Origin: Aerococcus urinaehominis
GTDB lineage: Bacteria; Bacillota; Bacilli; Lactobacillales; Aerococcaceae
Assembly: GCF_001543245.1 (NCBI RefSeq)
Contig: NZ_CP014163.1
Span: 1,718,387-1,782,386, forward strand
Length of the DNA stretch: 64,000 bases
Direction of reading: 5' to 3'
The translations under genes were made by a program, and so were the position numbers. Positions 6,032 to 49,394 of this stretch are shown here, one piece after another (within the stretch, counting starts at the first letter, position 1; every line of letters starts with the position of its first letter). The notes beneath the pieces are model-generated. The model was not told where the DNA came from. It saw only the letters and a list, made by a program, of their open reading frames with translations, and did not search any database.

Positions 6032-6067
6032 TTTGAATTGTACCTGAGCCGATAGGGGGAGGGCGGG

Positions 6068-6392
6068 GAAGTAGCTTAAGGTACCCAGTTAGGCTATTTC
6101 AGCGCAGCTTCAATGGCGAATTATCCATTTCTCGGGCGATGAAGTAGCTTAAGCCAGGCAGTTAAGCTATATCAGCTCGGTTTCGCTGTCATGTCGCCTT
6201 TTCCATGGGTGGTGAACTAGCTTAAGGTACCCAGTTAGGCTATTTCAGCGCAGCTTCAATGGCGAATCGTCCAGTTCTCGGGCGGCGAAATAGCTTAAGT
6301 CACCTAGTTAGGCTATATCAGCTCGGTTTCGCTGCTATTTCGCCTTTTTCTTGGTCCGCGAACTAGCTTAAGCCGCCTTGTTAAGCTAGTTC
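6068..6392 (+). repeat. Repeat array B1: five inverted repeats at an exact 73-bp period
   Basis: Units begin at 6068, 6141, 6214, 6287 and 6360, exactly 73 bp apart. Each unit has arms of the form GAAnTAGCTTAAG and GTTAAGCTAnTTC around 6-7 variable bases. In the last unit the fourth base pairs as C-G (GAACTAGC/GCTAGTTC). The roughly 40-bp spacers alternate between two types, one containing CGCAGCTTCAATGGCGAAT and one containing CTCGGTTTCGCTG. The array fills the gap between the converging crtM and the 6552 gene. No coding potential was seen. Confidence 0.85.
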
Positions 6393-13260: not shown

Positions 13261-14965
13261 AGAAATTTCTAGAAAACAGTATGTTGATCTCTACGGACCA
13301 ACAACTGGCGATAAGGTACGCTTAGGTGATACAGATATCATTATTGAAGTAGAGAAAGACTACACTAACTATGGCGATGAGTTAGTCTTTGGTGGAGGCA
13401 AGGTCGCCCGTGAAGGTATGGGGATGGATTCTCGTATTTTACGTTCAGACCAGGTACCTGATGTTGTGATTACTAATGCTTTAATCCTTGATTATACTGG
13501 TATTATTAAGGCTGATGTAGCCATTCGAGATGGAAAAATCCAAAAAATTGGTAAAGCTGGAAACCCGGGCACAATGGATAAAGTCGACATTGTTTGTGGG
13601 AATGCTACAGAAATTATCGCTGGTGAAGGACGAATTCTAACCGCAGGCGGTATTGATACTCATGTCCATTTTATCTCACCGGAACAAGCTGATGTCGCTC
13701 TTGAAAGTGGTGTAACTACTCTATTTGGTGGTGGGACTGGTCCAGCAGCTGGCACCAAAGCAACCACATGTACACCAGGTGCTTGGAATATTGAACGTAT
13801 GTTACAAGCTGTTGATGGATTACCTATTAATGTTGGTTTACTTGGAAAAGGTAATGGTGCGGTAACAGCCCCACTAGCTGAACAGATTGAGGCAGGTGCA
13901 GCTGGTCTGAAAGTCCATGAAGACTGGGGAGCAACCTTTGCTGCTATTGATAATTCGCTAAAAGTTGCAGATGAGTATGATATTCAAGTAGCGATTCATA
14001 CGGATACACTAAATGAAACAGGATTTGTAGAACGGACCGCTGAAGCTATCGGTGATCGTGTCATTCACACCTTCCATACTGAGGGTGCTGGGGGTGGTCA
14101 TGCGCCAGATATTATTAAATTAGCTAGCTTACCAAACGTTTTACCGGCATCAACTAACCCAACAATGCCATATACAACGAATACACTAGATGAGCACTTA
14201 GATATGTTAATGGTATGCCACCATTTAAATCCAGATATTCCAGAAGATGTCGCTTTTGCGGATTCTCGTATCCGTAAAGAAACGATTGCAGCCGAAGATA
14301 TTCTTCAAGATATGGGTATCTTTAGTATTATGAGTTCTGACTCTCAAGCAATGGGTCGTGTCGGTGAAGTTATTACCCGTACTTGGCAAGCAGCAAGTAA
14401 AATGAAAATGCAAAGGGGACCGTTACCAGAAGAAACTGGTGATAATGATAACTTCCGTGCTAAACGGTATATTTCAAAATACACTATTAATCCAGCATTG
14501 GCTCAAGGCATTGCGGACTATGTTGGCTCAGTTGAAGAAGGTAAATTTGCTGATCTCGTTTTATGGGAACCAGCTTTCTTTGGTGCCAAACCAGAATTAG
14601 TGATTAAAAGTGGTATGGTTGCAGTTTCAGAAATGGGAGATTCAAATGGTTCAATTCCTACGCCACAACCAGTTACTTATCGCCATATGTATGGCGCATA
14701 CGGTGAGGCTTTAGCTAAATCTTCCTTTACCTTTGTTTCTGAGGCAGCGCAACATAATAAAATTAAAGATAAATATAATTTAAGGAAAGAGACATTACCT
14801 GTCCACGGCATTCGTAATCTAACTAAAAAAGATATGAAATTTAATGATGCAACCCCAAGACTCGATGTTGATCCGCAAACCTATGAGGTCAAAGTAGACG
14901 GTAACCCTGTTACCTGTGAACCGGTTGATGTCTTACCGTTAGCTCAACGCTACTTCTTATTCTAA
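13250..14965 (+). CDS. ureC: Urease alpha subunit (catalytic)
   Basis: Catalytic subunit with the dinuclear nickel site, 571 residues. Visible metal ligands: the DTHVHF motif (His138, His140), the lysine that is carbamylated in [10 protein letters not shown] (Lys221), the histidines in IHTDTLNE and [15 protein letters not shown], and the aspartate in [12 protein letters not shown]. The active-site flap histidine lies in MVCHHL. All are intact, so the enzyme should be active if nickel and accessory proteins are supplied. Two in-frame ATGs (13250 and 13253) can both serve as start. Confidence 0.98.
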
Positions 14966-30811: not shown

Positions 30812-31072
30812 AGATATAAACCTAAATTGATTGGGACTAGTAGCTTCTTGCTTGCTTACAGAAAGACCATGGTTGCTGTGAATGGTTAGTAACAAGAGGG
30901 GAATCCACCCATGTAGTGACTAGGAGGCTTTGCCGAACTAGCTCCGGGACTCGCCGTTATGAGCAAGCGTGCCAACTTGGTTGGCATAGTAGGGTGGTAC
31001 CGCGCAAATAGATCTGATAACTATTCCGTCCCTAAAACTGATTGTTTTAGGAATGGGATAGTTTTTTTATTT
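30812..31072 (+). promoter_or_regulatory. T-box leader (serine type by context)
   Basis: Long structured leader of about 260 bases ending in the conserved T-box sequence AGGGTGGTACCGCG at 30991-31004. This is followed by a terminator whose stem is ACTATTCC with GGATAGT extended through CCTAAAAC/GTTTTAGG, then TTTTTTT. Uncharged tRNA pairing with the T-box favours the antiterminator. Serine specificity is inferred only from the gene it controls, serS; I did not locate the specifier codon with certainty. Confidence 0.9.
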
Positions 31073-35878: not shown

Positions 35879-36047
35879 TTGCGGGGTTAAAAAAGAGGCT
35901 GTGACAAAGGTCCTTTAGTGCTGAAGTCTTGGACCAAAAGTTGAATGATATTTGCAAGATAAGGATGGATTTTGAGAAACAACGCCAAGCTAGGGCGTTA
36001 GCCGTGGATCAGCCCTGGCTAGATTGATAATAGGCGAATAATAGCGA

Positions 36048-36080
36048 GAGCCTGGGATTTATCCCAGGCTCTTCTATTTT
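36048..36080 (+). terminator. T hairpin at the left border of array B2
   Basis: GAGCCTGGGA/TCCCAGGCTC stem with a short loop, then TTCTATTTT. It is preceded by ATAGCGA and followed by a conserved flank shared with the T hairpins of arrays B3 and B4. It may terminate the acetyltransferase transcript. Confidence 0.75.
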
Positions 36081-36117
36081 GACTGTTAGGTGGGCAACAG
36101 GTGGAGTTGCCACTAGG

Positions 36118-36590
36118 GAAATAGCTTAGCTAGTGGGATTAAGCTATTTGGAATCGCAGTCGGTAGTCAACCTCATGGCATTTCATCTCTGAAGTAGCTT
36201 AAGTGGTGGAGTTAAGCTACTTGGAAGCTGAGTCAAAAGCTAATTTAACTAAATCTCGACGTTGAAGTAGCTTAAGTGGCGGAGTTAAGCTACTTGAAAC
36301 TGTGCTCGGTAGCCAATCTCGAGGCATTCTATCTCTGAAATAGCTTAAGTGAAGGTGTTTAGCTACTTGGAAGCGGGGTCAAAAGCTAATTTAACTAAAT
36401 CTCGACGTTGAAGTAGCTTAACTAGTGGAGTTATGCTATTTGGATACAAGCTCAACAGCTAGTTTCATAAATTTCCTGTTTTGAAGTAGCTTAAGTGGTG
36501 GTGTTAAGCTATTTGAACCTGTGTCAAAAGTTAATTTGATTAAATCCCGATGTTGAAGTAGCTTAAGTGGTGGAGTTAAGCTACTTGGAA
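36118..36590 (+). repeat. Repeat array B2: seven inverted repeats at a 73-bp period
   Basis: Units start at 36118, 36191, 36264, 36337, 36410, 36483 and 36555, giving steps of 73, 73, 73, 73, 73 and 72. The arms are GAAGTAGCTTAAG and GTTAAGCTACTTG; one or two bases differ among units. Two spacer types alternate, one with GGTAGTCAACCTC-like and one with AAAAGCTAATTTAACTAAAT. The array lies between the converging acetyltransferase and aldo-keto reductase genes. Confidence 0.85.
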
Positions 36591-36624
36591 CCTGGCTATG
36601 TTTCTAAAATGCGGATAATAGCAA

Positions 36625-36655
36625 GAGCCTGGGATTTATCCCAGGCTCTTTTGAT
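36625..36655 (+). terminator. T hairpin at the right border of array B2
   Basis: GAGCCTGGGA/TCCCAGGCTC stem, then TTTTGATTT. It is a direct-orientation copy of the left-border hairpin 577 bp upstream. Confidence 0.75.
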
Positions 36656-36677
36656 TTATTTACTTGTTTCTAGTGCC

Positions 36678-37183
36678 CCAGTTCAAAGCGCTGGTCGTCG
36701 CACCCTTTAGTCGGGTTCGGTCTGGCAGAACTGAAGTCCTTTCATAAAATCCAATACAATATCTGCGATATTGATTGTCTTTTATTCCAAGGATTCAGTT
36801 CTAAGCGCCAGCCCTCACACCCTGTTTTAGTCGGGTTCGGCTTGGCAGGACTGAAGCCACTTCAGAAACTAGTCTCAATAGCTTGCAGCTATTGGCCTAA
36901 TTCCTTCCAGTGGTTCATTCCTGAACGCCAAGCCTCACACCCTGTTTTAGTCGGGTTCGAAAAAGCAGACCTGGCGCTACTTCATAAAATCCGGCACATT
37001 ATCTTTTAGATAATGACCGTATTTTATTCCAGTAGTCCATTTCTGAGCGCTTTTTCTCACACCCTGGTTAGTCGGGCTCCAAGAAGCTGAACTGAAGTCC
37101 TTTCACTAGGCAGACTCAATATCTTTTAGATATTGGTCTGCCTAGCTCCAAGGATCCAGTTCAGATCGCTTCTTGTCGCACCC
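36678..37183. repeat. Family A hairpin array A3, four units plus a partial one, 120-bp period
   Basis: The linker TTTAGTCGGGTTCG recurs at steps of exactly 120 (ending 36720, 36840, 36960; the fourth, TTAGTCGGGCTCC, near 37080). Hairpins carry different outer arms that stay paired: TTGGC/GCCAAG, AAAAGC/GCTTTTT and AAGAAGC/GCTTCTT. Apical stems are CAATATC/GATATTG, CAATAGC/GCTATTG and ATTATC/GATAAT. Compared with array A2 the array is in the opposite orientation. It ends 4 bases before the stop of the converging aldo-keto reductase gene. Confidence 0.85.
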
Positions 37184-37187
37184 TGGT

Positions 37188-38030
37188 TTAAAATGGTTTG
37201 GTGTTTGGGTCTGGGCACTCGACGTCGATGTCTAAGTTGTCGAGGGTGGCCATGTCTTCTGGGCTGATGGTCAGGTCAGGCAGGTCAAAGTTGGCTTTAA
37301 TATTATCAGGATTGGATGACCGGGGTAGGACGATAAAGTCGTGCTGGAGGGCCCAAGTTAGGGCCAGCTGGGCCACGCCAGTCTGGTACTTGTCAGCCAG
37401 GGTTTTAATCTCTTCATTAGCGAATAGGTCGCCGGAACCAAAAGGACTGTAGGCTTCTAGGGCCATTCCATGTGCTTTGGAGAAATCAACCAAGTCCTTT
37501 TGCAGGAGGCCTGGGGTCAGCTTGATTTGGTTGACCATGGGCTTGATGCGGGCTGTTTCTGCCAGGGCTTGATAATGTTCTTGGTGGAAGTTAGAAATGC
37601 CAATGGACTTGGCTAAACCTTGGTCGTAGAGGTCTTCCAGGGCCCGCCAAACCTCAGCATTACGGGCTTGGTAGCCCGGTTCTTCCCGGTAGGCTTGGGG
37701 GTTAGGCCAGTGGACTAGTAAGAGGTCGACATAGTCGGTTTGGAGTTTTTTTAAGGATTCCTCAAATGAAGCAATTGTCCCTTCATAAGTAGCCTGGTCA
37801 TTCCAAATTTTGGTGGTTAGAAAAATATCGGCGCGATCAACGTGCGAATCTTTAATAGCCTGGCCGACACCGGCTTCATTCTTGTAGGTTTGGGCCGTAT
37901 CGATATGACGGTAGCCAGCTTCTAGGGCAGCGGTGACCGCCTGGATAACTTCCTCGCCATCGGCCAAACGCCAGGTGCCAAAGCCAAGGGCCGGTACTTG
38001 CAAACCATTTGCTAATTCAACTGTTTTCAT
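37188..38030 (-). CDS. Aldo/keto reductase
   Basis: NADPH-dependent carbonyl reductase of the AKR superfamily, 280 residues. The catalytic tetrad is visible: Asp44 and Tyr49 (YRHIDTAQTYKNE), Lys74 (LTTKIW) and His107 (LLVHWP). The C-terminal part includes LPRSSNPDNIKANFD, the cofactor-binding segment. Relatives include 2,5-diketo-D-gluconate and methylglyoxal reductases. AGGAGGTATAAA precedes the ATG on the minus strand. It runs directly into array A3, which may act as its terminator. Confidence 0.9.
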   Translation of the reverse strand: MKTVELANGLQVPALGFGTWRLADGEEVIQAVTAALEAGYRHIDTAQTYKNEAGVGQAIKDSHVDRADIFLTTKIWNDQATYEGTIASFEESLKKLQTDYVDLLLVHWPNPQAYREEPGYQARNAEVWRALEDLYDQGLAKSIGISNFHQEHYQALAETARIKPMVNQIKLTPGLLQKDLVDFSKAHGMALEAYSPFGSGDLFANEEIKTLADKYQTGVAQLALTWALQHDFIVLPRSSNPDNIKANFDLPDLTISPEDMATLDNLDIDVECPDPNTKPF

Positions 38031-38241
38031 TTTATACCTCCTAAAATAGCGGTTACATGTTACTTTAAGTTTACCATAGTGGCTTGAAAAATAAAGGATC
38101 TTGCTGGTTGTGGTTTGGTAAAGGCTAGCTGACCCGGCTGGTCAAGCGGGCGATCAAGCCTGATCGTTAAGAGAGGGCTTACATAATGGGCTGGCTTTCT
38201 CTATACTAGGAGTAGAATTGATTAGACTAGGAGTGGTGAAT

Positions 38242-39114
38242 ATGAAACCGTTGAAATATCTTTTGGCAGTGACGGCAAGTTTATTTTTAGTCGCCTGTGG
38301 TGGGGAACAGGGCGCTGACAAAAACCAGGCCAGCCAGTCAGGTGACTTAACCGAAATTACCATCGCCTCTAAGGGGTCGGATGCAGAAGTTTGGCGTCAT
38401 ATTGCTGACTTAGATGAAACCAAAGAAGCTGGATTCAAACTTAAAGTGGAAGACTTTGTTGAGGGACCACAAATTAACCAGGCAACTGCTGAGGGAGAGG
38501 TTGATGTCAATGCTTTCCAAAACTTCGGTTATGTCAATGCCTATAATGAAGAAGCTGCTGATGATTTGAAGTTAGCGACAATTGGCACAACTTATCTTGA
38601 GCCTATGGGACTCTACTCTAAAAAGCATCAAGTCTTATCTGACTTGCCTGACGGTGCGACTATCGGCTTACCAGAGTATCCTTCTGACCAATCTCGAGCA
38701 GTCAAACTATTAGCGGCAGCAGGGTTGGTAAAATTAGATACCAATCAGGGTCTGTTGACAACAGCTAATATTATCGACAATCCGAAAAATCTAACATTCA
38801 ATCTTATTAATGAAAATACTTTACCGCGTGTTTTAGATGACTTGGATGCGGCTGCTATCGGTAATACGATTTCCTTAGAAGCTGGATTAAAAGTTAACCA
38901 GGATACCATTTACAAAGAAGAAGTTTCTGAAGAAAATGCACCGTCTGTTAACATCTTGGTGACAGCAGCTGGTCGAGAAAATGAGGATGCACTTAAAAAA
39001 TTAGTTGACCTCTATCATTTACCAGTAGTTCAAGATTATGTGAATGAAAAATTTGAGGGTACTAAAATTCCCGTTCATTTTGACGACCAACAAGTTAAAA
39101 GTGCTATGAATTAA
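38242..39114 (+). CDS. MetQ/NlpA-family substrate-binding lipoprotein
   Basis: Binding protein of a methionine-type ABC importer, about 290 residues. The signal MKPLKYLLAVTASLFLVAC gives Cys19. The NlpA domain begins ITIASKGSDAEVWRHIA and includes VDVNAFQNFGYVNAYNEE and IGLPEYPSDQSRAVKLL. No metN or metI lies adjacent and no SAM riboswitch is visible, so it probably shares a transporter encoded elsewhere. The start at 38242 was preferred to the in-frame codon at 38218 because the signal peptide begins there. Confidence 0.86.
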   Translation: MKPLKYLLAVTASLFLVACGGEQGADKNQASQSGDLTEITIASKGSDAEVWRHIADLDETKEAGFKLKVEDFVEGPQINQATAEGEVDVNAFQNFGYVNAYNEEAADDLKLATIGTTYLEPMGLYSKKHQVLSDLPDGATIGLPEYPSDQSRAVKLLAAAGLVKLDTNQGLLTTANIIDNPKNLTFNLINENTLPRVLDDLDAAAIGNTISLEAGLKVNQDTIYKEEVSEENAPSVNILVTAAGRENEDALKKLVDLYHLPVVQDYVNEKFEGTKIPVHFDDQQVKSAMN

Positions 39115-39130
39115 ACTTACTACCGATTTT

Positions 39131-39155
39131 GAGCTAGCCAGCGCTAGCTCTTTTT
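39131..39155 (+). terminator. Terminator of the MetQ-like gene
   Basis: GAGCTAGC/GCTAGCTC stem with a 4-nt loop, TTTTT. Confidence 0.92.
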
Positions 39156-39306
39156 AATAGCTTAATTTAGACCAGTTTTATAGATGATATGCTCTAAGTG
39201 CAAACTTGAGGAATTTGATTAAGGCTGTCATGGTAATAATCATATGCTAAAGTTCACTTAACGAGAGAAGAAATCAACCAGGCTGAAGCTAAATAATAAG
39301 CAGTTG

Positions 39307-39335
39307 AAAGATTGGCATTTAGGCCAATCTTTTTT
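39307..39335 (+). terminator. Second terminator hairpin, without an obvious gene
   Basis: AAGATTGGC with GGCCAATCTT and TTTTTT lies about 150 bp after the first one. The sequence between encodes no clear gene (a short frame reading VHLTREEINQAEAK is preceded by stops). Confidence 0.7.
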
Positions 39336-39528
39336 ACTTATTTAAGGTCTATTTGCGATTCTAGGCATTGAGCGCTTAAAATCAGATATTTACTACACTA
39401 ACTAGGGAGAAGGTGTAGAGAAATATGATCAAGTCCATTTTTCTTTTCAATTCAGCGTGATTCACTACACTATTTGGGTGAGAAAGTGCAGAGAATCATT
39501 CCAGAGCACTTAACCAGGATGAGACTAG

Positions 39529-40853
39529 TGTCAAGTCCACAATCTTGTGTAAATTATAGAATGTAATTGGTGGGTATAAATATTTAGACTATGTTATTAA
39601 AGAATTTATGAGGACATGTCTCCCAATATTCATGCAAATCAAGCAATACACTTCCTATAAGTCGCTCCGCAGCCTCTATATTAGGAAAGAGGCCGACAAC
39701 TTTCTCTCTTCTTCTAATTTCTCGATTTAGCCTTTCTAGACTGTTAGTTGTTTTCAGTGAAACGCGATAAGGTGTGGGTTCTAATAAGTATGGGATAGCA
39801 TCTTCGAAGCCTTCCTCTAGCGTATTAACAGCTTTGTCATATTTCTCATTGCCACTAACGTATTCTACAAATTCAAATTTTAACTCTCGCGCTCTTTGTT
39901 GACTATCAGCATTAAATATTCTCTTTAGAAGACTTCTCTCATGACTGCAATCCTTTTTTGGAAAATGAGCTAAAATATTACGTAGAAAATGAACCGTACA
40001 CCGTTGCCAGGTAGTGCCTAAAAATTGATTACTAATCGCTGATTTTAGTCCCTTGTGGGCGTCAGATATAATTAATGTTGGTTTAGTTAGGCCTCTGGCC
40101 TTTAAATCAAGGAAGAAGTTCTTCCAGTTTTCTTCTGATTCATTATCAGCAATCATAAAGCCGATAATTTCGCGACGATTATCATCGTTAATACCCTGAG
40201 CAATATAAACACCTTTAGAGACAGAACGATGGTTTTCGCGAACTTTAATATACATGGCATCGACATAAACATATCGAAAATTCGTATGTGTTAGGGAACG
40301 CCCTTTAAATTCGAAAACAGCAGGGTCCAAGTTTTTATTTACTGAAGAGACAAATGATTTAGAAACACCTTCGCCACAGAGTGTTTCAACAACCTTCTTA
40401 ATACGGCGTGTTGAGACCCCATTAATATACATTTCGGTTAAAACAGCCACAAAGGCCTTGTCCATACGTTGATATTTATCGAATAGCTTGGTATCAAATT
40501 CTCCTGATCGTGTCCGAGGGACATCCAGTTCAACAGTCCCTACCTTTGTTTTAAAGTTTCTTTTATAGGAGCCATTACGATAATCTTTCCGGTCATCTGT
40601 GCGCTCATAGCGCTTAGCATTAATAAATTCCTCACGCTCTGCTTGCATATAGGCATTAAAGATGGTTACAGTTAGGGACTTCATCATCTGATCCATATCA
40701 CTGTTTAGAACTGCCTCTGTAATTTCTTCTAAGTTTAGGGTAATATTTAGTTGAGCCATAATAATCTTCCTTTCAATGTGTTTTAGCCAATTACATTGTA
40801 ACCAAAAAAGATTATTATGGTTTTTCTTTTTACACAATTATATGGACTTAATC
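39529..40853 (-). mobile_element. Complete IS256-family insertion sequence (1325 bp)
   Basis: The left end reads TGTCAAGTCC and the right end, on the complementary strand, GATTAAGTCC, followed by similar inner bases (TTGTGTAAA in both), as in IS256-family terminal repeats. The target duplication GAGACTAG is present at 39521-39528 and 40854-40861. It carries one intact transposase on the minus strand and sits inside a spacer of array C. Confidence 0.92.
39584..40759 (-). CDS. IS256-family (mutator-type) transposase
   Basis: DDE transposase of 391 residues, intact. The start at 40759 (MAQLNITLNLEEITEAVLNS) is preceded by GGAAG; the frame upstream is open but lacks a site. Family features are RNGSYKRNFKTKVGTVELDV, the Asp-containing YVDAMYIKVRE, the second Asp region LIISDAHKGLKSAI, the CTVHFLRN segment and, at the C-terminus, TNSLERLNREIRRREKVVG with the catalytic Glu. 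Terminal repeats and target duplication agree with a functional element. Confidence 0.95.
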   Translation of the reverse strand: MAQLNITLNLEEITEAVLNSDMDQMMKSLTVTIFNAYMQAEREEFINAKRYERTDDRKDYRNGSYKRNFKTKVGTVELDVPRTRSGEFDTKLFDKYQRMDKAFVAVLTEMYINGVSTRRIKKVVETLCGEGVSKSFVSSVNKNLDPAVFEFKGRSLTHTNFRYVYVDAMYIKVRENHRSVSKGVYIAQGINDDNRREIIGFMIADNESEENWKNFFLDLKARGLTKPTLIISDAHKGLKSAISNQFLGTTWQRCTVHFLRNILAHFPKKDCSHERSLLKRIFNADSQQRARELKFEFVEYVSGNEKYDKAVNTLEEGFEDAIPYLLEPTPYRVSLKTTNSLERLNREIRRREKVVGLFPNIEAAERLIGSVLLDLHEYWETCPHKFFNNIV

Positions 40854-41596
40854 GAGACTAGGGGGATTCACTACCCTAATTAGAGAAAAACGTGTAGAGA
40901 ATTGAGCTCTCTCGCCAGTCTGCCTACAGTTTACTAGTATTCACTACCCTAACTAGGCGATAAGGTGTAGTGAATCATTCTAGACAACTTAATCAGGATG
41001 AGGCTAGGAGAATTCACTACCCTAACTAGACGAAAAAGTGTAGAGAATTTCTCCCGCTAGCCAGTCTGCCAACAGATTACTAACATTCACTACCCTAACT
41101 CAGGGAGAAGGTGTAGTGAATCATTCCAGAGCACTTAACCAGGATGAGGCTAGGGGGATTCACTACCCTAATTAGAGAAAAACGTGTAGAGAATTGAGCC
41201 CTCTAGCCAGTCTGCCTACAGTTTACTAGTATTCACTGCACTAACTCAGGGAGAAGGTGTAGAGAATCATTCCAGAAAACTTAATCAGGATGAGGCCAGG
41301 GCAATTCACTACCCGAACTAGACGAAAAAGTGTAGAGAATTGTTCCCGCTAGCCAGTCCGCCTATAGTTTACTAGCATTCACTACCTAAACTGAGCGAGT
41401 TGGTGTAGTGAACCACCTAGTCTAGGAAGCAAAAAGTTAAAAATCGATATAGGATAAGGGACTATTTTAGCTAGAAAGCCGGTTGCAACCTCCGTATCCC
41501 CATCATGCCGCTGATTAGCTAGCTTGGTTAATATGTCATGAATAGCTGGACAAAAACAGAACGTATGTTCTATAATATCCATAAGGAGGGACTATC

Positions 41597-41905
41597 ATGC
41601 ATTTAATCCAGCGGGCCAAGATCAAACGCCAGCCTTATGATATTGTCGCCTGGTTGACCAGCAAGGGCTATGTCTTCCACGATACCTTTATTAAAATTGG
41701 CGACTACAAGTTAGGGCGGGACTGGTGTGAGGCCTGGTCGGTCCATAAGCCGGCCGAGAATTTTATGTTTGAGAACTATGTTTTATTATTTACGGCTGAC
41801 TATCTTTATGTGGTGGCGCCTGGCAAGGTGCTCATCAGCCCAGATAGTGTGGGGGAATACATTGACCAAGTTCTAGCCCCCAAGTTAGCCCAAGCGACTA
41901 GCTAG
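41597..41905 (+). CDS. Small hypothetical protein
   Basis: A 102-residue soluble protein without a recognised domain: MHLIQRAKIKRQPYDIVAWL, then a Tyr/Phe/Val-rich mid-section and GEYIDQVLAPKL. It has a near-perfect ribosome site (AAGGAGGGA). Isolated between array C and a bidirectional terminator. Confidence 0.65.
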   Translation: MHLIQRAKIKRQPYDIVAWLTSKGYVFHDTFIKIGDYKLGRDWCEAWSVHKPAENFMFENYVLLFTADYLYVVAPGKVLISPDSVGEYIDQVLAPKLAQATS

Positions 41906-41997
41906 CCAGGGGAGTCCAGGCCGGGTGTGGCTGAGTCCATAAGTTACATAGTTGATTTAGCCCAGTTTACTTGGCCCAATAAATATGGTCAGCAGAC

Positions 41998-42033
41998 AAA
42001 AAAAGCAAGCCCCACCATGAGGCTTGCTTTTTT
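41998..42033. terminator. Bidirectional terminator between converging genes
   Basis: AAAAAAGCAAGCC pairs with GGCTTGCTTTTTT across a 9-nt loop; A run and T run make it work on both strands. Confidence 0.92.
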
Positions 42034-42053
42034 AAGGCAAATTTTTATCTTAA

Positions 42054-43094
42054 TTAGGCTTGGTTTTCTGGATCGTGAGTTAATTTCACACCAGCGTAAC
42101 CAGAACCAGCAGCGATGATAGCTGATAATAGTAAACCAACGAAGGCCCATACTGAACCAGCTGCACCTGTGTTAGTAGCTTGGGTTGCAGATTGTTCAAC
42201 TTGGTCAACAGTTTGGTCAACTTGAACTTTAGCATCTTGGATGGCTTGAGAAGCGTTGTTTAAAGCAACAGTTGCTTGGTCAGAAGCTTCTTGTAAACCA
42301 TTGTAGATGTTGTTAACAGCTTGGTCAGCTTCAGCAGGTGTTAATTCAGTGTTTGTAGCAACAGCTGAAGAAATCGCATCGCGGTCAGCAGCGTTTGAGA
42401 TTGTTTCAACGCGGTTAGCTAAGCTATCAGTGGTATTTTGGATGATCGCATCAGCGTTTTCTGGGTTAACCACAATTTCGCGACCAGCAGCAACGATTTC
42501 ATCGCGGGCTGCTTGTAATTGATTGTTGATGTATTCAGGTTGTAACTCAGGTACATCAGTATCGCGTAAGATTTGGTTAACGTCGGCTTGTAATTGTTGG
42601 TCGTCAACGTTTTGGATATCGTTAGCGATATTGTTGTAAGCTGATTCAACAGCGTTACCAGCTGAGTTAGCAGCTTGAGATACGGCATTGCCAGCTACGT
42701 TAGCAGCTGAAGAAGCCACGTTACCAGCTAGGGTAGCAACTGAGCTTAACAACATACCAAGTAATACGAAGATAATGGTAATTGATGAAGCCCAAGTAAC
42801 GAAACCATGTAAAGCACCCACACGACGGGCAGCAATACCTGATACAAAACCAGCACCAGCAAATGATAAAATCAATACAATGACTGACCAAATGCCCATG
42901 CCAGTACCAACACCAGAGAATGGGTTAGCAGTAGTGAAATCAACCACACCTAAGCCGATAGCGGCAGAGATAGTTGATAGGGTAACAAAAATGGCAAAGA
43001 ATGATACAACACCAGCGAAGATTGAACCCCAAGAGATATTGTAACCAGCTTCCTTGTCATAATCGCTTAAATAGCGAGTGACACGAGTTTTCAT
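42054..43094 (-). CDS. Membrane protein with long Ala/Asn/Gln-rich helical middle region
   Basis: A 346-residue protein. Residues 20-130 contain three hydrophobic segments (for example IFAGVVSFFAIFVTLSTISA and TIIFVLLGMLLSSVATLAG). The middle, about 135-310, is highly repetitive and amphipathic (AANVAGNAV, SQAANSAGNAVESAYN, later QATVALNNASQAIQD), like extended coiled or apolipoprotein-like helices. A C-terminal membrane segment (WAFVGLLLSAIIAAGSGYAG) anchors the end. The family is not recognised, though the N-terminal layout recalls YrzE-type membrane proteins. GGAGGAG lies before the ATG. Possibly stress- or surface-related; this is a guess. Confidence 0.6.
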   Translation of the reverse strand: MKTRVTRYLSDYDKEAGYNISWGSIFAGVVSFFAIFVTLSTISAAIGLGVVDFTTANPFSGVGTGMGIWSVIVLILSFAGAGFVSGIAARRVGALHGFVTWASSITIIFVLLGMLLSSVATLAGNVASSAANVAGNAVSQAANSAGNAVESAYNNIANDIQNVDDQQLQADVNQILRDTDVPELQPEYINNQLQAARDEIVAAGREIVVNPENADAIIQNTTDSLANRVETISNAADRDAISSAVATNTELTPAEADQAVNNIYNGLQEASDQATVALNNASQAIQDAKVQVDQTVDQVEQSATQATNTGAAGSVWAFVGLLLSAIIAAGSGYAGVKLTHDPENQA

Positions 43095-43470
43095 AATGTG
43101 AAACTCCTCCTTCTTATTATTTTATAATTGCCTATAATATAACTGTAACAATTAAGTCGCTAAGAAGCAATTGATAAGGTCCGCAAACCTTTCTACACCA
43201 AGTTTTCAGGCGGTTATCATATTTTTATAAAAGCCCAAAAACGCGCACTGTTAACAAAGAAAGCGATTGCTGGTCCAGGTCAAAATAGAAACAAAAATTG
43301 TATTTTGCTTCTAGGCTAGGATTATTAAAAACTTCAGTCAGCTTTTAAAAAAAGTCTGGATAATCCTTAAAGGCTTATTAAAGATTTACTTTTAGCGGTC
43401 AGCGACTGCCATCTTATGTTACAATGTTTTGGATAGATATGATTACTGAAGTAAGAGAGGTATTATAATC
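43095..43470. other. Divergent intergenic region, no gene seen
   Basis: Holds the 5' regions of two divergent genes. It contains a GC-poor stretch and a possible -10 (TACAAT at 43420-43425) for the rightward gene without a clear -35. No repeats of families A-C and no ORF of interest. Confidence 0.4.
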
Positions 43471-44058
43471 ATGAATTATAAAAAAGGCATGGTCCTTTTA
43501 GCCGGAGTGGCTTTACTAGCAGCTTGCGGTCAGAGTAAGGAAGATACAGCTTATAATGAATCAAGCTCTTCAGGTACGACCCAAGCCCAGGTTAAGCACA
43601 ACGCCCGTAGTAATAAGAAAACCAGCAAGGCATCAAGCCAGTCTAAGTCACAATCTGTTGCAACCAATAGCCAAGCGCCAGCTAGCCAGCCAGCGCCAGC
43701 TACTAGCGGCAGTGTAGCGGAAAGCCAGCCAGCAGCCAGCGCTGGCATCGTGGATAATAATCCCGGTGTGACCAGCGACCAAGCAGCTAATGTGACAGCC
43801 AACGATGACTTGATTCGTCAGTATTTGGATGAGGCTGTGCCCCTAATTAACCAAGTCTCTAACGGTATGTTCCAGTCAAGCGAGTACTTCTTCATGCCTT
43901 ATTTAGAAGAGGATGGTACTTTGACAATTGAAGTCCGTCGTCAGTCACCTGGTGACCAAGCGCAAACCAATTTGATTACTATCTATAGCTATGACCATGA
44001 ACATGGCCACTTGATGGAATTTAATGCCGCCACTGGTGACATGCAACAAGTAAATTAA
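43471..44058 (+). CDS. Secreted lipoprotein of unknown function
   Basis: A 195-residue lipoprotein. The signal MNYKKGMVLLAGVALLAAC gives Cys19. A long low-complexity linker rich in Ser, Lys, Ala, Gln and Pro (about residues 25-100) is followed by a compact C-terminal domain of about 85 residues (DDLIRQYLDEAVPLINQVSN through NAATGDMQQVN). No family was recognised. AGAGAGG is the ribosome site. Confidence 0.7.
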   Translation: MNYKKGMVLLAGVALLAACGQSKEDTAYNESSSSGTTQAQVKHNARSNKKTSKASSQSKSQSVATNSQAPASQPAPATSGSVAESQPAASAGIVDNNPGVTSDQAANVTANDDLIRQYLDEAVPLINQVSNGMFQSSEYFFMPYLEEDGTLTIEVRRQSPGDQAQTNLITIYSYDHEHGHLMEFNAATGDMQQVN

Positions 44059-44061
44059 AGT

Positions 44062-44110
44062 AAGCAGGGTGTGAGAAAAAGCGCTCTGAACCCGACTAAA
44101 AAGGTGTGAC
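44062..44110. repeat. Family A remnant
   Basis: Contains AGGGTGTGAGAAAAAGCGCTCTGAAC and CCCGACTAAAAAGGTGTGAC with no hairpin between, a unit deleted to its linkers. Confidence 0.5.
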
Positions 44111-44165
44111 AACCAGTTCGGCTACTTCGAAGCTGACTATACTGATATTACACCTAAAATAGCGA

Positions 44166-44200
44166 GATCCTGGGGGATAAGCCCCCAGGATCTTTTCTTT
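44166..44200 (+). terminator. T hairpin at the left border of array B3
   Basis: GATCCTGGGGG/CCCCCAGGATC with a short loop, followed by TTTTCTTTT; preceded by ATAGCGA. A covarying version of the hairpin at 36048. Confidence 0.8.
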
Positions 44201-44237
44201 TGACTGTCAGGTGGGCAACAAGTGGAATTCCGACGCT

Positions 44238-44637
44238 GAAGTAGCCTAAGTGGTGAAGTTAGGCTATTTGGCACCTAGGTCAAAAGCTAATTTGACTAAA
44301 ACTAAATGCTGAAGTAGTTTAACTGTTGGTGTTAGGCTACTTGGGGCCAAGCTCAAAAGCTAATCTCATTCAATACATGCCTTGAAGTAGCTTAAGTGGT
44401 GGTGCTAAGCTACTTGGGGCCGAGCTCGAGAGCTGATTCCACGCAATATCTGTTCTGAAGTAGCTTAAGTGGTGGAGTTAGGCTATTTGGCACCTAGGCC
44501 AAAAGCTAATTTGACTAAATTTAAACGCTGAAGTAGCTTAACTGTTAATGTTAAGCTATTTGGGGCCGAGCTCAAAAGCTGATTCCACGCAATTTCTGCT
44601 CTGAAGTAGCTTAACTGTTAATGTTAAGCTACTTGGG
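44238..44637 (+). repeat. Repeat array B3: six inverted repeats at an exact 73-bp period
   Basis: Units start at 44238, 44311, 44384, 44457, 44530 and 44603, all 73 bp apart. Arms are GAAGTAGCTTAAG and GTTAAGCTACTTG with changes in both arms in several units (GCCTAAG with TTAGGC). The alternating spacer types include AAAAGCTAATTTGACTAAA and CGAGCTCAAAAGCTGATTCC. Confidence 0.85.
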
Positions 44638-44722
44638 GCCAAGCTAGACTTGACTGTTGCGAAAAGCGGTCAGGTCTGCCGAGTCGAACCCAACTATACT
44701 AATCCTACACCTACAATAGCGA

Positions 44723-44755
44723 GATCCTGGGGGCTTATCCCCCAGGCTCTTTTTG
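44723..44755 (+). terminator. T hairpin at the right border of array B3
   Basis: GATCCTGGGGG with CCCCCAGGCTC, then TTTTTGC; in direct orientation with the left-border copy. Confidence 0.75.
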
Positions 44756-44784
44756 CTTGCGAAAAAAATAAATAAGCTAATACT

Positions 44785-44813
44785 TTGCGCTGAAATCGTT
44801 TACAATATATAAT
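44785..44813 (+). promoter_or_regulatory. Promoter of the trehalose operon with a CcpA (cre) site
   Basis: TTGCGC 44785-44790 and TATAAT 44808-44813 are 17 bp apart. TGAAATCGTTTACA at 44791-44804 matches the cre consensus TGWNANCGNTNWCA at every defined position and fills the spacer, so CcpA should repress when preferred sugars are present. Confidence 0.8.
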
Positions 44814-44880
44814 GGAATTGCTTTCAAATGGGACCTGGTCAACCAGGCCAAATGCATGATTTGTCAGCTAGAGGAGGTTT

Positions 44881-46386
44881 ATGATGAGCGCATTTAGACA
44901 AGATGCGGGTGATTTATTAAAGCATATTGGGGGCCGGGATAATATCCAAGCGATGACCCACTGTGCCACCCGGATGCGGTTTGTCCTCAATGATCCGGAC
45001 GCCGCCGATGTCGAGGCCATCGAGGAAATTCCATCGGTCAAGGGGACCTTTACCCAATCCGGCCAATTCCAGGTCATTATTGGGAACAAGGTGGCTGATT
45101 TCTACAATGATTTTGAAGCCCTTTCCGGGGTAACCGGGACGACTAAAGAGGCCGTTAAGCAGGAGGCAGCCAAGCACCAGCAAAATAAATTGCAACAGGC
45201 TATGACCTTCTTAGCTGAAGTCTTTGCGCCAATTATTCCCGCTATTATCTGTGGTGGTTTGATTCTTGGCTTCCGTAATGTCTTGGAAGGAGTGCCCATG
45301 GAAATGCTGGGGCAAAAGATTGTCGATGGGGTGGCCCAAACCGCAGCCGATGGGTCAGCTGTCTACAATACCATTGTTGATGTCTCACCTTTCTGGGCTG
45401 GGGTTAACAGCTTCCTCTGGCTACCAGGTGAAGCCATCTTCCACTTTCTACCTGTTGGCATTACCTGGTCAGTCACCCGCAAGATGGGCACGACCCAAAT
45501 TTTAGGGATTATCTTGGGGATTACCCTGGTATCACCGCAATTGCTGAATGCCTATGCAGCTCCCGAAGCCATTGCCAGCGGGGCGGTGCCACAATGGGAT
45601 TTTGGTTTCTTCCAATTAGACATGATTGGCTACCAGGCCCAAGTCTTACCGGCCATGTTTGCAGGCTTAGCCCTGGCTTGGCTGGAACGATTCTGGCGTA
45701 AGCATGTGCCAGAGACGGTGGCCATGATTTTCGTGCCTTTCCTATCCCTACTACCAGCCATTGTTCTGGCCCACACTATTTTAGGGCCTTTAGGCTGGCA
45801 AATTGGCACTTGGATTGGCCAAGTGGTCTATGCGGGCTTGACTGGTCCAGTTTCTTGGCTCTTTGGCCTGATTTTTGGGGCCCTTTATTCACCGCTAGTA
45901 ATTACTGGTCTTCATCATATGACCAACGCCATCGACTCGCAATTAGTAGCTGACTTTGGCGGTACCGGCTTGTGGCCAATGATTGCCTTGTCTAATATTG
46001 CCCAGGCCTCAGCGGTAATGGGGGTTTGGTGGATGACTCGCAAGGATGAAAAAGAAAACCAAATTACCTTACCTTCAGCTATTTCTGCCTATTTAGGGGT
46101 CACTGAACCAGCCATGTTTGGGGTGACCATCAAGTATGTTTACCCATTTGTGGCTGCCATGATTGGTTCAGGCCTAGCTGGTTTAATTTCAACCCTATCC
46201 GGCATCACCGCCAACTCCATTGGGGTAGGGGGCCTGCCAGGTATCCTGGTTATCCAACAACCTTACTGGGTCTGGTTCCTAATCGCCATGGCGGTAGCCA
46301 TCGTGGTCCCATTTGTTTTGACCCTAACCTTCAAGAAGCTTGGCTTTTTAACCAAGAGCAAGTTGGACTTCAATATTAAATTTTAA
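44881..46386 (+). CDS. treP: PTS trehalose-specific EIIBC component
   Basis: Membrane permease that takes up trehalose and delivers trehalose-6-phosphate. The 501-residue protein starts with an EIIB domain (phospho-accepting Cys28 in MTHCATRMRFVLNDP) followed from about residue 105 by the glucose-superfamily EIIC domain with about ten membrane segments. It includes the substrate-loop segment ITGLHHMTNAID and SAYLGVTEPAMFGV. No EIIA is fused, so phosphoryl groups come from another EIIA. The assignment to trehalose rests mainly on treC next to it. Two ATGs (44881, 44884) follow GAGGAGG. Confidence 0.92.
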   Translation: MMSAFRQDAGDLLKHIGGRDNIQAMTHCATRMRFVLNDPDAADVEAIEEIPSVKGTFTQSGQFQVIIGNKVADFYNDFEALSGVTGTTKEAVKQEAAKHQQNKLQQAMTFLAEVFAPIIPAIICGGLILGFRNVLEGVPMEMLGQKIVDGVAQTAADGSAVYNTIVDVSPFWAGVNSFLWLPGEAIFHFLPVGITWSVTRKMGTTQILGIILGITLVSPQLLNAYAAPEAIASGAVPQWDFGFFQLDMIGYQAQVLPAMFAGLALAWLERFWRKHVPETVAMIFVPFLSLLPAIVLAHTILGPLGWQIGTWIGQVVYAGLTGPVSWLFGLIFGALYSPLVITGLHHMTNAIDSQLVADFGGTGLWPMIALSNIAQASAVMGVWWMTRKDEKENQITLPSAISAYLGVTEPAMFGVTIKYVYPFVAAMIGSGLAGLISTLSGITANSIGVGGLPGILVIQQPYWVWFLIAMAVAIVVPFVLTLTFKKLGFLTKSKLDFNIKF

Positions 46387-46402
46387 TTGCTAGGCTACTC
46401 AT

Positions 46403-46436
46403 GAAAAGGTCGAGGCTGGTTGGCCTGGACCTTTTC
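46403..46436 (+). terminator. Hairpin between treP and treC, possible attenuator or processing site
   Basis: GAAAAGGTC and GACCTTTTC arms with inner AGGC/GCCT. The bases after it are CTAGTAG rather than a T run, so it may reduce expression or stabilise the treP mRNA instead of ending transcription. Confidence 0.5.
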
Positions 46437-46473
46437 TAGTAGTTTGACCCGAATTTTTAACAAGGAGGCACTT

Positions 46474-48168
46474 ATGACAAAAGCACTCGGCCAGTATGTA
46501 ATCTACCAAGTTTATCCTAAATCCTTTAAAGATAGTGACGGCGACGGACATGGTGATCTACGCGGGGTGATTGAAAAGCTGGACTACCTGGCTCAGTTAG
46601 GGATTGATATGATCTGGCTCAATCCCTTTTATCCTTCGCCGCAAAAGGACAATGGCTATGATATTTCTGACTATACTGCTATCGACCCCCGTTACGGGAC
46701 CATGACTGATTTTGAAGACCTGGTTGACCAGGCTGGTCAGCGGGGCATTGGCCTGATGCTGGACATGCCCCTCAACCATTCGTCTATTGACCATGACTGG
46801 TTCCAGGCAGCCCTTTCAGGGGATGAATATTACCAGGACTACTACTATATTCGGCCTGCCAAGGCGGACGGGTCTCTGCCCACCAACTGGGCATCTAAAT
46901 TTGGGGGACCGGCCTGGGCACCCTTTGCTGGTGAGGAGGGGGAATATTACCTCCACCTCTATGACCGGACCCAAGCCGACCTCAACTGGCACAATCCTGC
47001 TGTTCGCCACGATCTCTACGATATTTTACGCTTTTGGCTGGCCAAGGGGGTCAAGGGCTTCCGCTTTGATGTTATGAACGTGATTGGTAAGGACGAGGTC
47101 CTGGTTGACTCGACCGGGGGACCGGGCTCCAGCCAGGAAAAACGCCTGTATACGGATACCGAAAATGCCCACCGCTGGGTCCATGAAATGAACCGGGCAA
47201 GCTTTGGCCAAAACCCTGACATTATTACCGTTGGCGAAATGTCGTCAACGACTATTGCTGATGGCATCCGCTATACCCAGCCCGACCAAGAAAAATTGGA
47301 TATGATCTTCTCCTTCCACCATTTGAAGGTAGACTACCAGGACGGGGACAAGTGGACCACCATGCCTTTTGATTTTATGGCCCTCAAGCAAATCCTCAAC
47401 GACTGGCAAAGGGGGATGGCGGCCGGCCAGGGTTGGAATGCTCTGTTTTTTAACAACCATGACCAACCCCGGGCTAATTCGCGCTTTGGCGACCCGGACA
47501 ACTATCCTTATGAAACAGCCACCATGCTGGCCCAGACCATCCATTTGATGCGGGGGACGCCTTATATTTTCCAAGGGGAGGAGATTGGCATGACCAATCC
47601 CGGCTTTGACCACTTGGCGGACTACCGCGATGTTGAGAGCCTTAATTACTACCAAATTTTACGCGACCAGGGCTTAGATGACCGCCAAGCCATGGCCATT
47701 ATTAAGGAAAAATCGCGGGATAATTCACGGACCCCCATGCAGTGGGACGATTCCGACCAGGCCGGCTTTACCACCGGCCAGCCCTGGATTAAGCTAGCTG
47801 ATAACTATGAGCGGATTAATGTTGCTCGAGAAGTCGCCCAGGGTAAAATTTTCCCTTACTACCAAGCGCTAATTAAGCTGCGCCATGACTTAGAAATTAT
47901 CCAGCTAGGGGACTATGAAGGCCTATTACTGGACCATCCTCAAGTCCTGGCCTACCGCCGTCGCTTGGACGACCAGGAGCTCGTAGTCTTTAGCCATTTC
48001 TACCCGGGTCAAGCTGAAGTCAACCTTAACCAGACTGATCTAAACCTAAACCAGGCTTGGACTAAGTTAATCGGCAACGGTGAATTAAATGAACTCACCA
48101 GCCAATTCCAGTTGGGACCATATGAAACCGTCGCTTTTATTAGTGGTGGGCCAGCAGTCGGCAGCTAG
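46474..48168 (+). CDS. treC: Alpha,alpha-phosphotrehalase (trehalose-6-phosphate hydrolase)
   Basis: GH13 enzyme that splits trehalose-6-phosphate to glucose and glucose-6-phosphate. 564 residues. The start at 46474 (MTKALGQYVIYQVYPKSF) follows AAGGAGG. GH13 regions visible are DMPLNHSSIDH (I), GFRFDVMNVIGK with the nucleophile Asp (II), TVGEMSS with the acid/base Glu (III) and FFNNHDQPR with the stabilising Asp (IV). It forms an operon with treP. Confidence 0.95.
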   Translation: MTKALGQYVIYQVYPKSFKDSDGDGHGDLRGVIEKLDYLAQLGIDMIWLNPFYPSPQKDNGYDISDYTAIDPRYGTMTDFEDLVDQAGQRGIGLMLDMPLNHSSIDHDWFQAALSGDEYYQDYYYIRPAKADGSLPTNWASKFGGPAWAPFAGEEGEYYLHLYDRTQADLNWHNPAVRHDLYDILRFWLAKGVKGFRFDVMNVIGKDEVLVDSTGGPGSSQEKRLYTDTENAHRWVHEMNRASFGQNPDIITVGEMSSTTIADGIRYTQPDQEKLDMIFSFHHLKVDYQDGDKWTTMPFDFMALKQILNDWQRGMAAGQGWNALFFNNHDQPRANSRFGDPDNYPYETATMLAQTIHLMRGTPYIFQGEEIGMTNPGFDHLADYRDVESLNYYQILRDQGLDDRQAMAIIKEKSRDNSRTPMQWDDSDQAGFTTGQPWIKLADNYERINVAREVAQGKIFPYYQALIKLRHDLEIIQLGDYEGLLLDHPQVLAYRRRLDDQELVVFSHFYPGQAEVNLNQTDLNLNQAWTKLIGNGELNELTSQFQLGPYETVAFISGGPAVGS

Positions 48169-48174
48169 CCTGAC

Positions 48175-48235
48175 GCCCAAGGATTCTGGACTGAACGGCA
48201 AGTCTCACACCCTTTTTAGTCGGGTTCCGAGCACC
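48175..48235. repeat. Family A remnant (right half of a unit) next to treC
   Basis: Contains the half-unit CCAAGGATTCTGGACTGAAC and linker CTCACACCCTTTTTAGTCGG. Its left half is missing, as at the left edge of array A3. Confidence 0.55.
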
Positions 48236-48239
48236 TTTT

Positions 48240-48704
48240 TCAGCTATGCCATCATCTAAGCTACTTCAGTGCTAGGATTTAGTTGAATTAGCTTTTGCCC
48301 CAGGCTCCTAATAGCTTAACACCGCCAGTTAAGCTACTTCAGACATGTATTGAATGAGATTAGCTGTTGAGCTCGGCCCCAAGTAGCTTAACGCCATTAC
48401 TTGAGCTACTTCAGCGTTTAGATTTAGTCAAATTAGCTTTTGCCCCAGGCTCCAAATGGCTTAACACCGCTACTTAAGCTATTTCAGAGATAGCATTTCA
48501 CGAGATCTGCTATCGAGCGCGATTCCAAGTAGCTTAACGCCATCACTTAAGCTAGTTCAGCATCGACATTCCTTGGGATTTATTGTTTAGCTTGGACCCA
48601 AATAGCTTAAGACCCTCACTTAAGCTATTTCAGAGAGGGGATTACACGAGATTGCCTGTTGAGATTGGGCCCAAATGGCTTAAGACCGCCACTTAAGCTA
48701 GTTC
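48240..48704 (-). repeat. Repeat array B4: seven inverted repeats at a 73-bp period, inverted relative to B2 and B3
   Basis: The 3' arms end at 48267, 48340, 48412, 48485, 48558, 48631 and 48704: steps of 73, 72, 73, 73, 73 and 73. The first unit is partial. Units read AAGTAGCTTAA and TTAAGCTACTTC on the plus strand. Spacer types again alternate, one with GTCAAATTAGCTTTTGCCCC, one with AGATCTGCTATCGAGCGCG. Confidence 0.82.
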
Positions 48705-48734
48705 AGCGTCGAAATTCTACCTGTTGCCACCTAA

Positions 48735-48774
48735 TAGTTAAAATAAAAGAACCCGGGACATTTGTCCCGGGTTC
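48735..48774 (-). terminator. T hairpin at the border of array B4 (reverse orientation)
   Basis: On the minus strand, GAACCCGGGAC/GTCCCGGGTTC follows ATAGCGA and is followed by TTTTATTTT. The base pairs differ from those of the other T hairpins but stay complementary. Confidence 0.75.
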
Positions 48775-48794
48775 TCGCTATTGTACGAATATTA

Positions 48795-49300
48795 TCAGCC
48801 AAAGCTCACATCCTTTTAGTCGGGTTCGGTCTGGCAGAACTGAAGTCCTTTCATAAAATTCGACACAATATCTGCGACATTGGTCGTCTTTTATTCCAAG
48901 GATTCAGTTCTAAACGCCAGCCCTCACACCCTGTTTTAGTCGGGTTCCGAGCAGCTGAACTGGCTGTCACTTCGCAAGCTTGGACACATTATCTTGCAGA
49001 TAATGGTCCAAGTTTACTCCAGTGCACCAGTTCAAAGCGCTGCTCGTCGCACCCTGTTTTAGTTGAGTTCGAAAAGCTGAACTGAAGTCGTTTCACTAGG
49101 CTGACTCAATATCTTTTAGATATTGGCCCGCCTAGCTCCAACGATGCAGTTCAGAACGCTTTCTCTCACATCCTTTTTAGTCGGGTTCGACTTGGCAGAA
49201 ATGACGTCACTTCAGAAATTAGTCTCAATAGCTTGCAGCTATTGGCCTAATTCCTTCCAGTGATTCATTCCTGAACGCCAAGTCTCACACCCTTTTTTTT
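48795..49300. repeat. Family A hairpin array A5, four units at a 120-bp period
   Basis: Linkers TAGTCGGGTTCG end near 48830, 48950, 49070 and 49190, at steps of 120. The hairpins have different but still complementary arms (for example GAGCAGC/GCTGCTC and CTTGGC/GCCAAG). The array ends TCTCACACCCTTTTTTTT. A few frames of up to 107 codons run through it in different phases and are not credible genes. Confidence 0.83.
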
Positions 49301-49394
49301 ACTGGCTAAGCGTGCTAGAATTAGTTATAATGCTTAATCAGTAATAATTTAAGCCGGTCAGGACAAGCTGACCTGGCCTTGAAAGGGTTTAGTC

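Follow-up and report, generated by a model that had tools for sequence, protein, structure and literature searches.

Inverted-repeat arrays with a 73-bp period

The window analysed here is a 64,000-nucleotide stretch of the Aerococcus urinaehominis chromosome (positions 1718387-1782386 of its one contig, which is 1,831,400 bp long), in which four arrays of inverted repeats, B1 to B4, lie between genes that include treC and a trehalose phosphotransferase system (PTS) gene (Table 1). The TreC protein has its nearest relatives in Aerococcus agrisoli (71%) and another Aerococcus (70%), the comparison genomes being drawn from outside the species. The original prediction, made from the letters of the window, had counted 25 units in the four arrays, with 73-bp steps throughout except for two of 72 bp, and this count was confirmed. 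Arrays in the window were placed with Tandem Repeats Finder, which returned a period of 73 for all four, and B units were called with a core matcher that allowed up to 4 mismatches, a selection by core that restricts variation at the inner positions. The matcher found 5, 7, 6 and 6 units in B1, B2, B3 and B4 (24 units, 20 steps), with 18 steps of 73 bp and two of 72 bp; an additional degenerate unit that opens B4 was seen by eye.

Table 1. Repeat arrays and associated elements in the window (window coordinates)
Feature	Position	Strand	Description
Array B1	6061..6392 (Tandem Repeats Finder 6061-6388)	-	5 dyad units, all four steps 73 bp; spacers of two alternating types; flanked by convergent open reading frames (ORFs)
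Array B2	36118..36592	+	7 dyad units, five steps of 73 and one of 72; flanked by convergent ORFs
Array B3	44235..44645	+	6 dyad units, all five steps 73 bp; flanked by co-directional ORFs; trehalose PTS gene downstream
Array B4	48257..48717	-	6 clear units and a degenerate end unit; steps 72, then four of 73; reverse orientation, downstream of treC
Module upstream of B2	36040..36117	+	Terminator-like hairpin, then GACTGTTAGGTGGGCAACAGGTGG; edges approximate
Terminator-like module upstream of B3	44145..44234	+	Identified by eye
Terminator-like module upstream of B4 in array orientation	48718..48790	-	Identified by eye
Array C	40854..41412	+	Second palindrome family (ATTCACTAC..GTAGTGAAT, 37 bp); period 73 with 146/292-bp higher order
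Remainder of array C beyond the IS256 copy	39390..39528	+	Two palindromes, identified by eye
IS256-family element in array C	39529..40853	-	Transposase ORF 39584-40837; 8-bp target duplication GAGACTAG; distance to the neighbouring palindrome 4 bp

When the window was compared with itself at lags of 20-400, identity of at least 55% over 200 bp was reached at 73, 145, 146, 219, 291, 292, 365 and 119/120. Identity at lag 146 exceeds that at lag 73 in each of B1 to B4 (0.87/0.69, 0.84/0.65, 0.81/0.75 and 0.73/0.70), which bears out the claim that two spacer types alternate; B3 matches best at lag 219 (0.85). The initial list of 73-bp arrays was correct for B1 to B4 but incomplete, since an array built on a different palindrome with the same period (array C) had been overlooked.

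Further B arrays lie at approximately 674, 732, 1595, 1642, 1710, 1799, 1814 and 1819 kb, so that the genome holds 12 arrays of this type, over which we counted 100 units. By core matching only, and with the 1595-kb array excluded, their steps comprise 68 of 73 bp, four of 72 bp and three double steps of 145 bp. Once six weak units had been added manually (two at 1799 kb, two at 674 kb and a single one at both 1819 and 732 kb), the eleven arrays show steps of 73 bp in 74 of 81 cases and of 72 bp in the other seven. The array that was set aside (1595539-1597628, L039) consists of B-type palindromes in a 73/53 alternation and is interrupted by an IS256 copy. At 1642 and 732 kb, blocks of 2 and 4 units are duplicated, with identity at lags 146 and 292 of up to 1.0, and the 732-kb array is almost homogeneous.

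Unit length looks constrained while spacers diverge

The spacers of the eleven arrays are 36 bp long in 74 of 81 cases and 35 bp long in seven, with no other length observed. Within clear spacer types of single arrays a spanning-tree count gave approximately 203 substitutions, and neighbour-joining trees gave 382 if every spacer of an array is taken as homologous; since the latter treats alternating and possibly unrelated spacers as homologous, the count within types is preferred. We also applied a common method to the 72- and 73-bp arrays of this genome (families B and C), choosing arrays by lag and counting steps only at 50% identity or above, and obtained 57 of 67 steps at 73 bp, nine at 72 bp and one at 76 bp. 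Control arrays of 118-123-bp hairpins had 8 of 22 steps at the modal length (Fisher p = 3e-5 against 57 of 67), the steps being contributed by this genome (4) and by genomes G007 (6), G037 (9) and G006 (3). Spacing in the B arrays is strict irrespective of spacer sequence, as expected of a cooperative DNA-protein array. Other fixed lengths exist as well, namely the 73/53 alternation and the 115-bp steps of family C. Judged from these counts, unit length looks constrained while the spacers diverge.

Half-sites vary without regard to pairing

Each B unit is a 37-bp dyad composed of two inverted 12-bp half-sites (approximately GAAnTAGCYTAA) with 9 bp, or rarely 8 bp, between them and with centres 21 bp apart. 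The TAGC/GCTA part of the half-sites is nearly invariant, two positions are the most variable, and the arm contains GTAG. That the arms change with pairing kept, as had been proposed, was contradicted by the data: over 11 arm pairs in 78 distinct units from the 12 arrays, 704 of 858 pairs were of the Watson-Crick type, as against a mean of 704.7 (standard deviation 4.8) when the 3′ letters were redistributed randomly among units. The most variable pair was paired in 32 of 77 units (31.7 expected) and the next in 54 of 76 (55.7 expected), and the mismatches included 41 of G.T and 38 of A.C. The lack of covariation, together with the lack of a G.T excess over A.C, favours recognition of half-sites in double-stranded DNA over a hairpin in family B. 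Such variation would be left by a protein that recognises the half-sites and tolerates changes at a position within them, and not by a hairpin. Across palindrome families (B, C and the ones in a second Aerococcus, see below) both arms change jointly, and hence the symmetry itself is kept.

Other palindrome families and other genomes

Family C has steps of 73, 72 and 115 bp, and of 61-63 bp at 17 kb, in tallies inflated by overlapping loci, through which some arrays enter twice, and by a few chance matches. Family D has 62-bp units with CTAA..TTAG cores and is found at 1647404-1648325, 698.6 and 628.4 kb, with one IS256 copy in each. At 1651590-1651811 a C array lies beside a D stretch, accompanied by two short IS256 end fragments. 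In a DNA search of 15 genomes of the genus, the C and D arrays matched this genome only. Separate from these families are arrays of long imperfect hairpins of approximately 120 bp (CACACCCTGTTTTAGTCGGGTTCGG) at window positions 36650-37190 and 48800-49320; relatives are present in 15 of 76 Aerococcaceae genomes, including this one (E ≤ 0.001), with units of 118-123 bp and no strict length.

A search of relatives for the arm pattern and its spacing, as the original prediction had proposed, found the exact pattern in no other genome searched, but near-exact spacing with other palindromes in another Aerococcus. An exact B arm pattern was absent from all 75 other genomes of the family, and a longer exact core pattern from all 394 others in the order, which had been taken from a larger group, with the proviso that exact patterns overlook diverged forms. 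The other aerococci were examined as sampled stretches, amounting to 400 kb for the Aerococcus genome G007, in which 21 self-match runs had a lag of 41 and single runs had lags of 40 and 42. Its 15 arrays have steps of 41 bp in 48 of 50 cases and of 40 bp in two. Thirteen of them are free of overlap with an ORF of at least 90 codons (the other two overlap by 16% and 65%), and several palindromes are represented, such as AACTTTCAAA/TTTGAAAGTT and CAACCCACA/TGTGGGTTG. G017 carries arrays of 62-63 bp; G005, G006, G014, G015, G016, G018 and a single G008 stretch yielded no clear short-period array, the exceptions being an array of clustered regularly interspaced short palindromic repeats (CRISPR) for G005 and one questionable run for G006. 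A 100-bp run was seen in G039. In these samples, species differ in unit length, and several palindromes of the same species share it.

A sequence-blind scan of 4.0 Mb (80 TreC loci together with 120 stretches, partly from this genome) listed intergenic palindromic arrays outside Aerococcus at 52, 51, 57 and 55 bp in L133, L071, L094 and L099 (Bacillus, Marinilactibacillus, Streptococcus). Tandem repeats of 52 bp in Paenibacillus tengchongensis (L137) and of 62 bp in Lactococcus termiticola (L139), both with palindromic-looking arms, were not listed by the scan; the phase test described next does not include them, although they would have counted in favour of phasing.

The original prediction had noted that 73 bp is close to seven turns of B-DNA, which would place all palindromes on one helix face. 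The lengths 41, 53, 62, 73 and 115 bp all lie near whole multiples of 10.5 bp, and six classes (62 counted twice), picked after the data had been seen, gave a mean resultant of 0.95 (simulated p = 0.0004). Inclusion of the 120-bp family raised p to 0.04. For periods taken at species level, seven in all (73, 41, 62, 52, 51, 55 and 57), p was 0.17, which is not significant; the arrays at 51, 52, 55 and 57 bp outside Aerococcus weaken the helical argument. Given the post hoc choice of classes and these two values, we regard helical phasing as no more than suggestive.

Genomic context and chromosomal distribution

We examined the flanks of 22 arrays of this genome, a set that leaves aside the 1595-kb array. 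By simple ORF calling, 21 have an ORF on both sides, with nine flanked by convergent, 12 by co-directional and none by divergent ORFs; in two of the co-directional cases (1710 and 1633 kb) the neighbour is an IS256 transposase. None of these arrays lies within an ORF, and overlap at the edges does not exceed 14 bp. A terminator-like hairpin followed by a GACTGTTAGGTGGGCAACAGGTGG-like stretch precedes six of the 12 B arrays (B2, B3 and B4, and the arrays at 1819, 674 and 732 kb; array orientation, judged by eye), and from this common module we conclude that these six at least are of shared descent.

The 27 B, C and D loci that were found, two of which lie side by side at 1651 kb, all fall within 562-733 kb or within a block that starts at 1585 kb, crosses the contig end and reaches 17 kb, the two blocks spanning approximately 435 kb of 1,831 kb. 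In 18 sampled 20-kb stretches outside the blocks no 62- or 73-bp array was found, only 118-bp hairpins and weak runs. A weak 83/84-bp run was noted at approximately 868 kb. Since the blocks are not symmetric around dnaA (1035 kb), we claim no replication role for the arrays. The window also contains a T-box leader at 30816-31036 (Rfam, 97.3 bits) and, on the minus strand at 13431-13688, a match to the 5′ ureB small RNA (Rfam, 87.4 bits).

Most IS256 copies lie in palindrome arrays, five of them at a similar offset

The genome contains 12 full-length, near-identical copies of an IS256-family insertion sequence (IS), in addition to the two short fragments at one site; one of the 12 transposase genes has an in-frame stop (1708166-1709416, L192). 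Eight copies lie inside tandem palindrome arrays (L029, L031, L032, L033, L034, L037, L038 and L039) and four elsewhere (L030, L035, L036 and L040). The chance of this is below 1e-11 if arrays make up 0.9-1.5% of the genome, and 4e-7 to 1e-5 if they make up 7.5-12% of intergenic DNA, where the shares are estimates and the 628-kb array was itself discovered through its IS copy.

Five insertions fall in arrays of the 72/73-bp type, and in each of them a gap of 3-4 bp, judged by eye, separates the 8-bp target duplication from a 37-bp dyad. By script, the distance from duplication centre to dyad centre is 25.5-26.5 bp, or approximately 2.5 turns, in L029, L032, L037 and L039 (in L039 to the third-best palindrome); in L038 the script found only the far dyad (47.5), and the nearer one, which is degenerate, was identified by eye. 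Insertions in the 62-bp arrays are less regular, and a clean target duplication was not seen in four of the 12 copies (L030, L033, L034 and L036). Among other aerococci, a 62-bp array adjoins one of the eight IS256-family copies in G017, and a 127-bp run adjoins the sole G010 copy; the remaining eight of the 10 IS256 loci examined there showed no array. For repetitive extragenic palindromic (REP) sequences, attraction of IS elements, including those of the IS256 family, is described in the accessible sections of PMC1525189.

Possible causes of the constant spacing

We propose, with a probability of approximately 0.4, that the arrays are spacing-constrained rows of dyads of the kind represented by bacterial interspersed mosaic elements (BIMEs) and neisserial intergenic mosaic elements (NIMEs), and that they are predicted to be bound cooperatively by a protein. 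The dyads would be sites recognised in double-stranded DNA, and a dimeric or oligomerising DNA-binding protein would fill successive units cooperatively, which by our proposal would lead to the loss of units that fall out of register. New units would be added when single units or blocks of several are duplicated in tandem, arrays would spread by copying, six times together with the terminator-like module, and IS256 would use the sites as landing marks. Through this occupancy, an array beside the 3′ end of a gene may have an architectural or insulating function. Support comes from the near-exact spacing, the half-sites without pairing selection, the unit length preserved as spacers diverge, the contrast with the 118-123-bp arrays, the second family C with its 73/72-bp steps, the intergenic location, the absence of divergent flanks among 21 arrays, the IS256 offset in five insertions and the sister species with its 41-bp period. 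The expectation of a cooperative protein voiced in the original prediction agrees with the length constraint and with the absence of covariation. A protein of this kind would be the most economical cause; an ancestral length inherited with few insertions or deletions (indels) is nearly as likely.

Several observations weigh against the cooperative-binding proposal. A binding protein for the arrays was not found, though no systematic search was made, and the wider phase tests and the periods outside Aerococcus reduce the force of the helical argument. The length control pools four genomes, draws 4 of its 22 steps from this one and consists of longer units. Compensated indels were considered for the 1710-kb array and rejected: its spacers matched at 0.33 with a shift of +2 and at 0.24 in register, while off-register B1 gave 0.32, and a shift at the level of this noise was not counted. 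At the most variable B arm pair a 3 x 3 test gave p = 0.04, in a direction other than pairing. The G007 units paired above shuffles (190 of 276 against 160.7 ± 5.1, and 338 of 540 against 288.7 ± 8.4) in a test on units preselected for pairing and pooled from several families, which could give an excess without a hairpin, as a hairpin would too. Finally, the flanking module shared by six arrays indicates that part of the common period reflects common descent.

Descent is central to the alternative that we take most seriously, namely that the arrays are neutral or selfish intergenic palindromic repeats of the REP/BIME/NIME type that grow in tandem, their period being an ancestral unit length preserved by descent and homogenisation with no protein to read it. 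This is nearly as likely as the proposal above and would account for the duplicated blocks of 2 and 4 units at 1642 and 732 kb, the near-homogeneity of the 732-kb array, the module common to six arrays and the geometry common to B and C, whose ancestry may be common too; the absence of arrays between divergent ORFs fits repeats that avoid promoters. It seems to sit less well with the greater drift of the 118-123-bp arrays, and with some 203 substitutions within spacer types as against 7 one-base length changes. It is improbable that the dyads are sites of a predicted recombinase or transposase, whether for site-specific recombination or as partners of a REP-type enzyme, with the arrays as its products. 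Inverted half-sites around a 9-bp centre do resemble recombinase sites, and IS256 insertion is tied to palindromes here as in the REPs of the accessible sections of PMC1525189, but the IS256 termini are by eye unlike the arms, four of 12 copies lie elsewhere, and a single short IS256 match is all that G007 shows in spite of its many 41-bp arrays.

A role as RNA or single-strand hairpins, that is, terminators or RNA stabilisers, is disfavoured for family B and appears very unlikely. The units are able to pair, the arrays adjoin gene 3′ ends, and the preselected, mixed-family units of G007 exceed their shuffles; family B, however, shows no excess of pairing or of G.T over A.C, six B arrays are already preceded by their own terminator-like hairpin (array orientation, by eye), and no Rfam family matched the window arrays at its gathering score. 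The resemblance of 37-bp palindromic repeats with 36-bp spacers to a CRISPR array or relic is likewise superficial. Unit length is regular and the repeat palindromic in both, but here the repeats are degenerate and the spacers recur and diverge by mutation, and the genome has a separate, ordinary CRISPR array at 1788916-1790477 (approximately positions 6530-8090 of L023) with a 29-bp repeat and a 61-bp period; a CRISPR identity is ruled out. We take the ordinary array to be type I-E-like.

Relation to known repeats and implications

In layout the arrays have near kin. NIMEs, according to the accessible text of PMC3898611, combine dRS3 and RS elements, with short inverted repeats alternating with spacers in intergenic arrays of 200-2700 bp that are targets of mobile DNA, and the arrays described here share the intergenic arrangement of inverted repeats and spacers within this size range. 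In the same text dRS3 is ATTCCC(N8)GGGAAT, which differs from the arms found here (approximately GAAnTAGCYTAA, or ATTCACTAC), and RS elements measure 30 to 160 bp, whereas the B spacers are 36 or 35 bp (the 1595-kb 73/53 array excepted). REPs of E. coli and other bacteria are described, in the accessible sections of PMC1525189, as multicopy extragenic palindromes of 21-65 bases that are clustered and targeted by IS elements; those of PMC3733652 give dimers 1-5 or 20-100 bp apart and large clusters with flanks of variable length. A short extragenic palindrome in many copies that is targeted by IS256 is common to these elements and the present arrays; the near-exact period of 73 (or 41) bp and B arms without pairing selection are unlike what these sections describe. 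The original statement that the regularity is not expected of ordinary REP elements was too strong, NIME and BIME arrays being so close in layout. Its other statement, that no known element is recognisable, needs qualification: the layout is that of REP/BIME clusters and NIME mosaics, and the strict unit length and half-site conservation of family B set the arrays apart. A GTAG/CGTC tag and an associated RAYT transposase likewise characterise REP/BIME elements, and GTAG lies within the B arm. Iterons and phased operator arrays are also rows of regularly spaced protein sites, ideally on one helix face, but differ from some 27 dispersed chromosomal arrays of three palindrome families beside the 3′ ends of unrelated genes. 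Going by titles, arrays of this kind in Aerococcus were not found in the open-licence PubMed Central literature.

Intergenic palindrome arrays are frequently treated as hairpins in discussions of their role. Family B separates two readings of such arrays, since in it pairing is not selected and spacing apparently is. The fixed offset of the IS256 insertions may amount to an independent in vivo footprint, and a pair of species with unlike unit lengths (73 and 41 bp) is suited to a direct binding assay. More speculatively, and in our view rather doubtfully, the dyad arrays of some Aerococcus species would be phased to the helix and have a unit length characteristic of each species (73 bp in this one, 41 bp in G007) that holds across palindrome families of unlike sequence, read by a predicted oligomerising protein and forming nucleoprotein bodies at gene 3′ ends.

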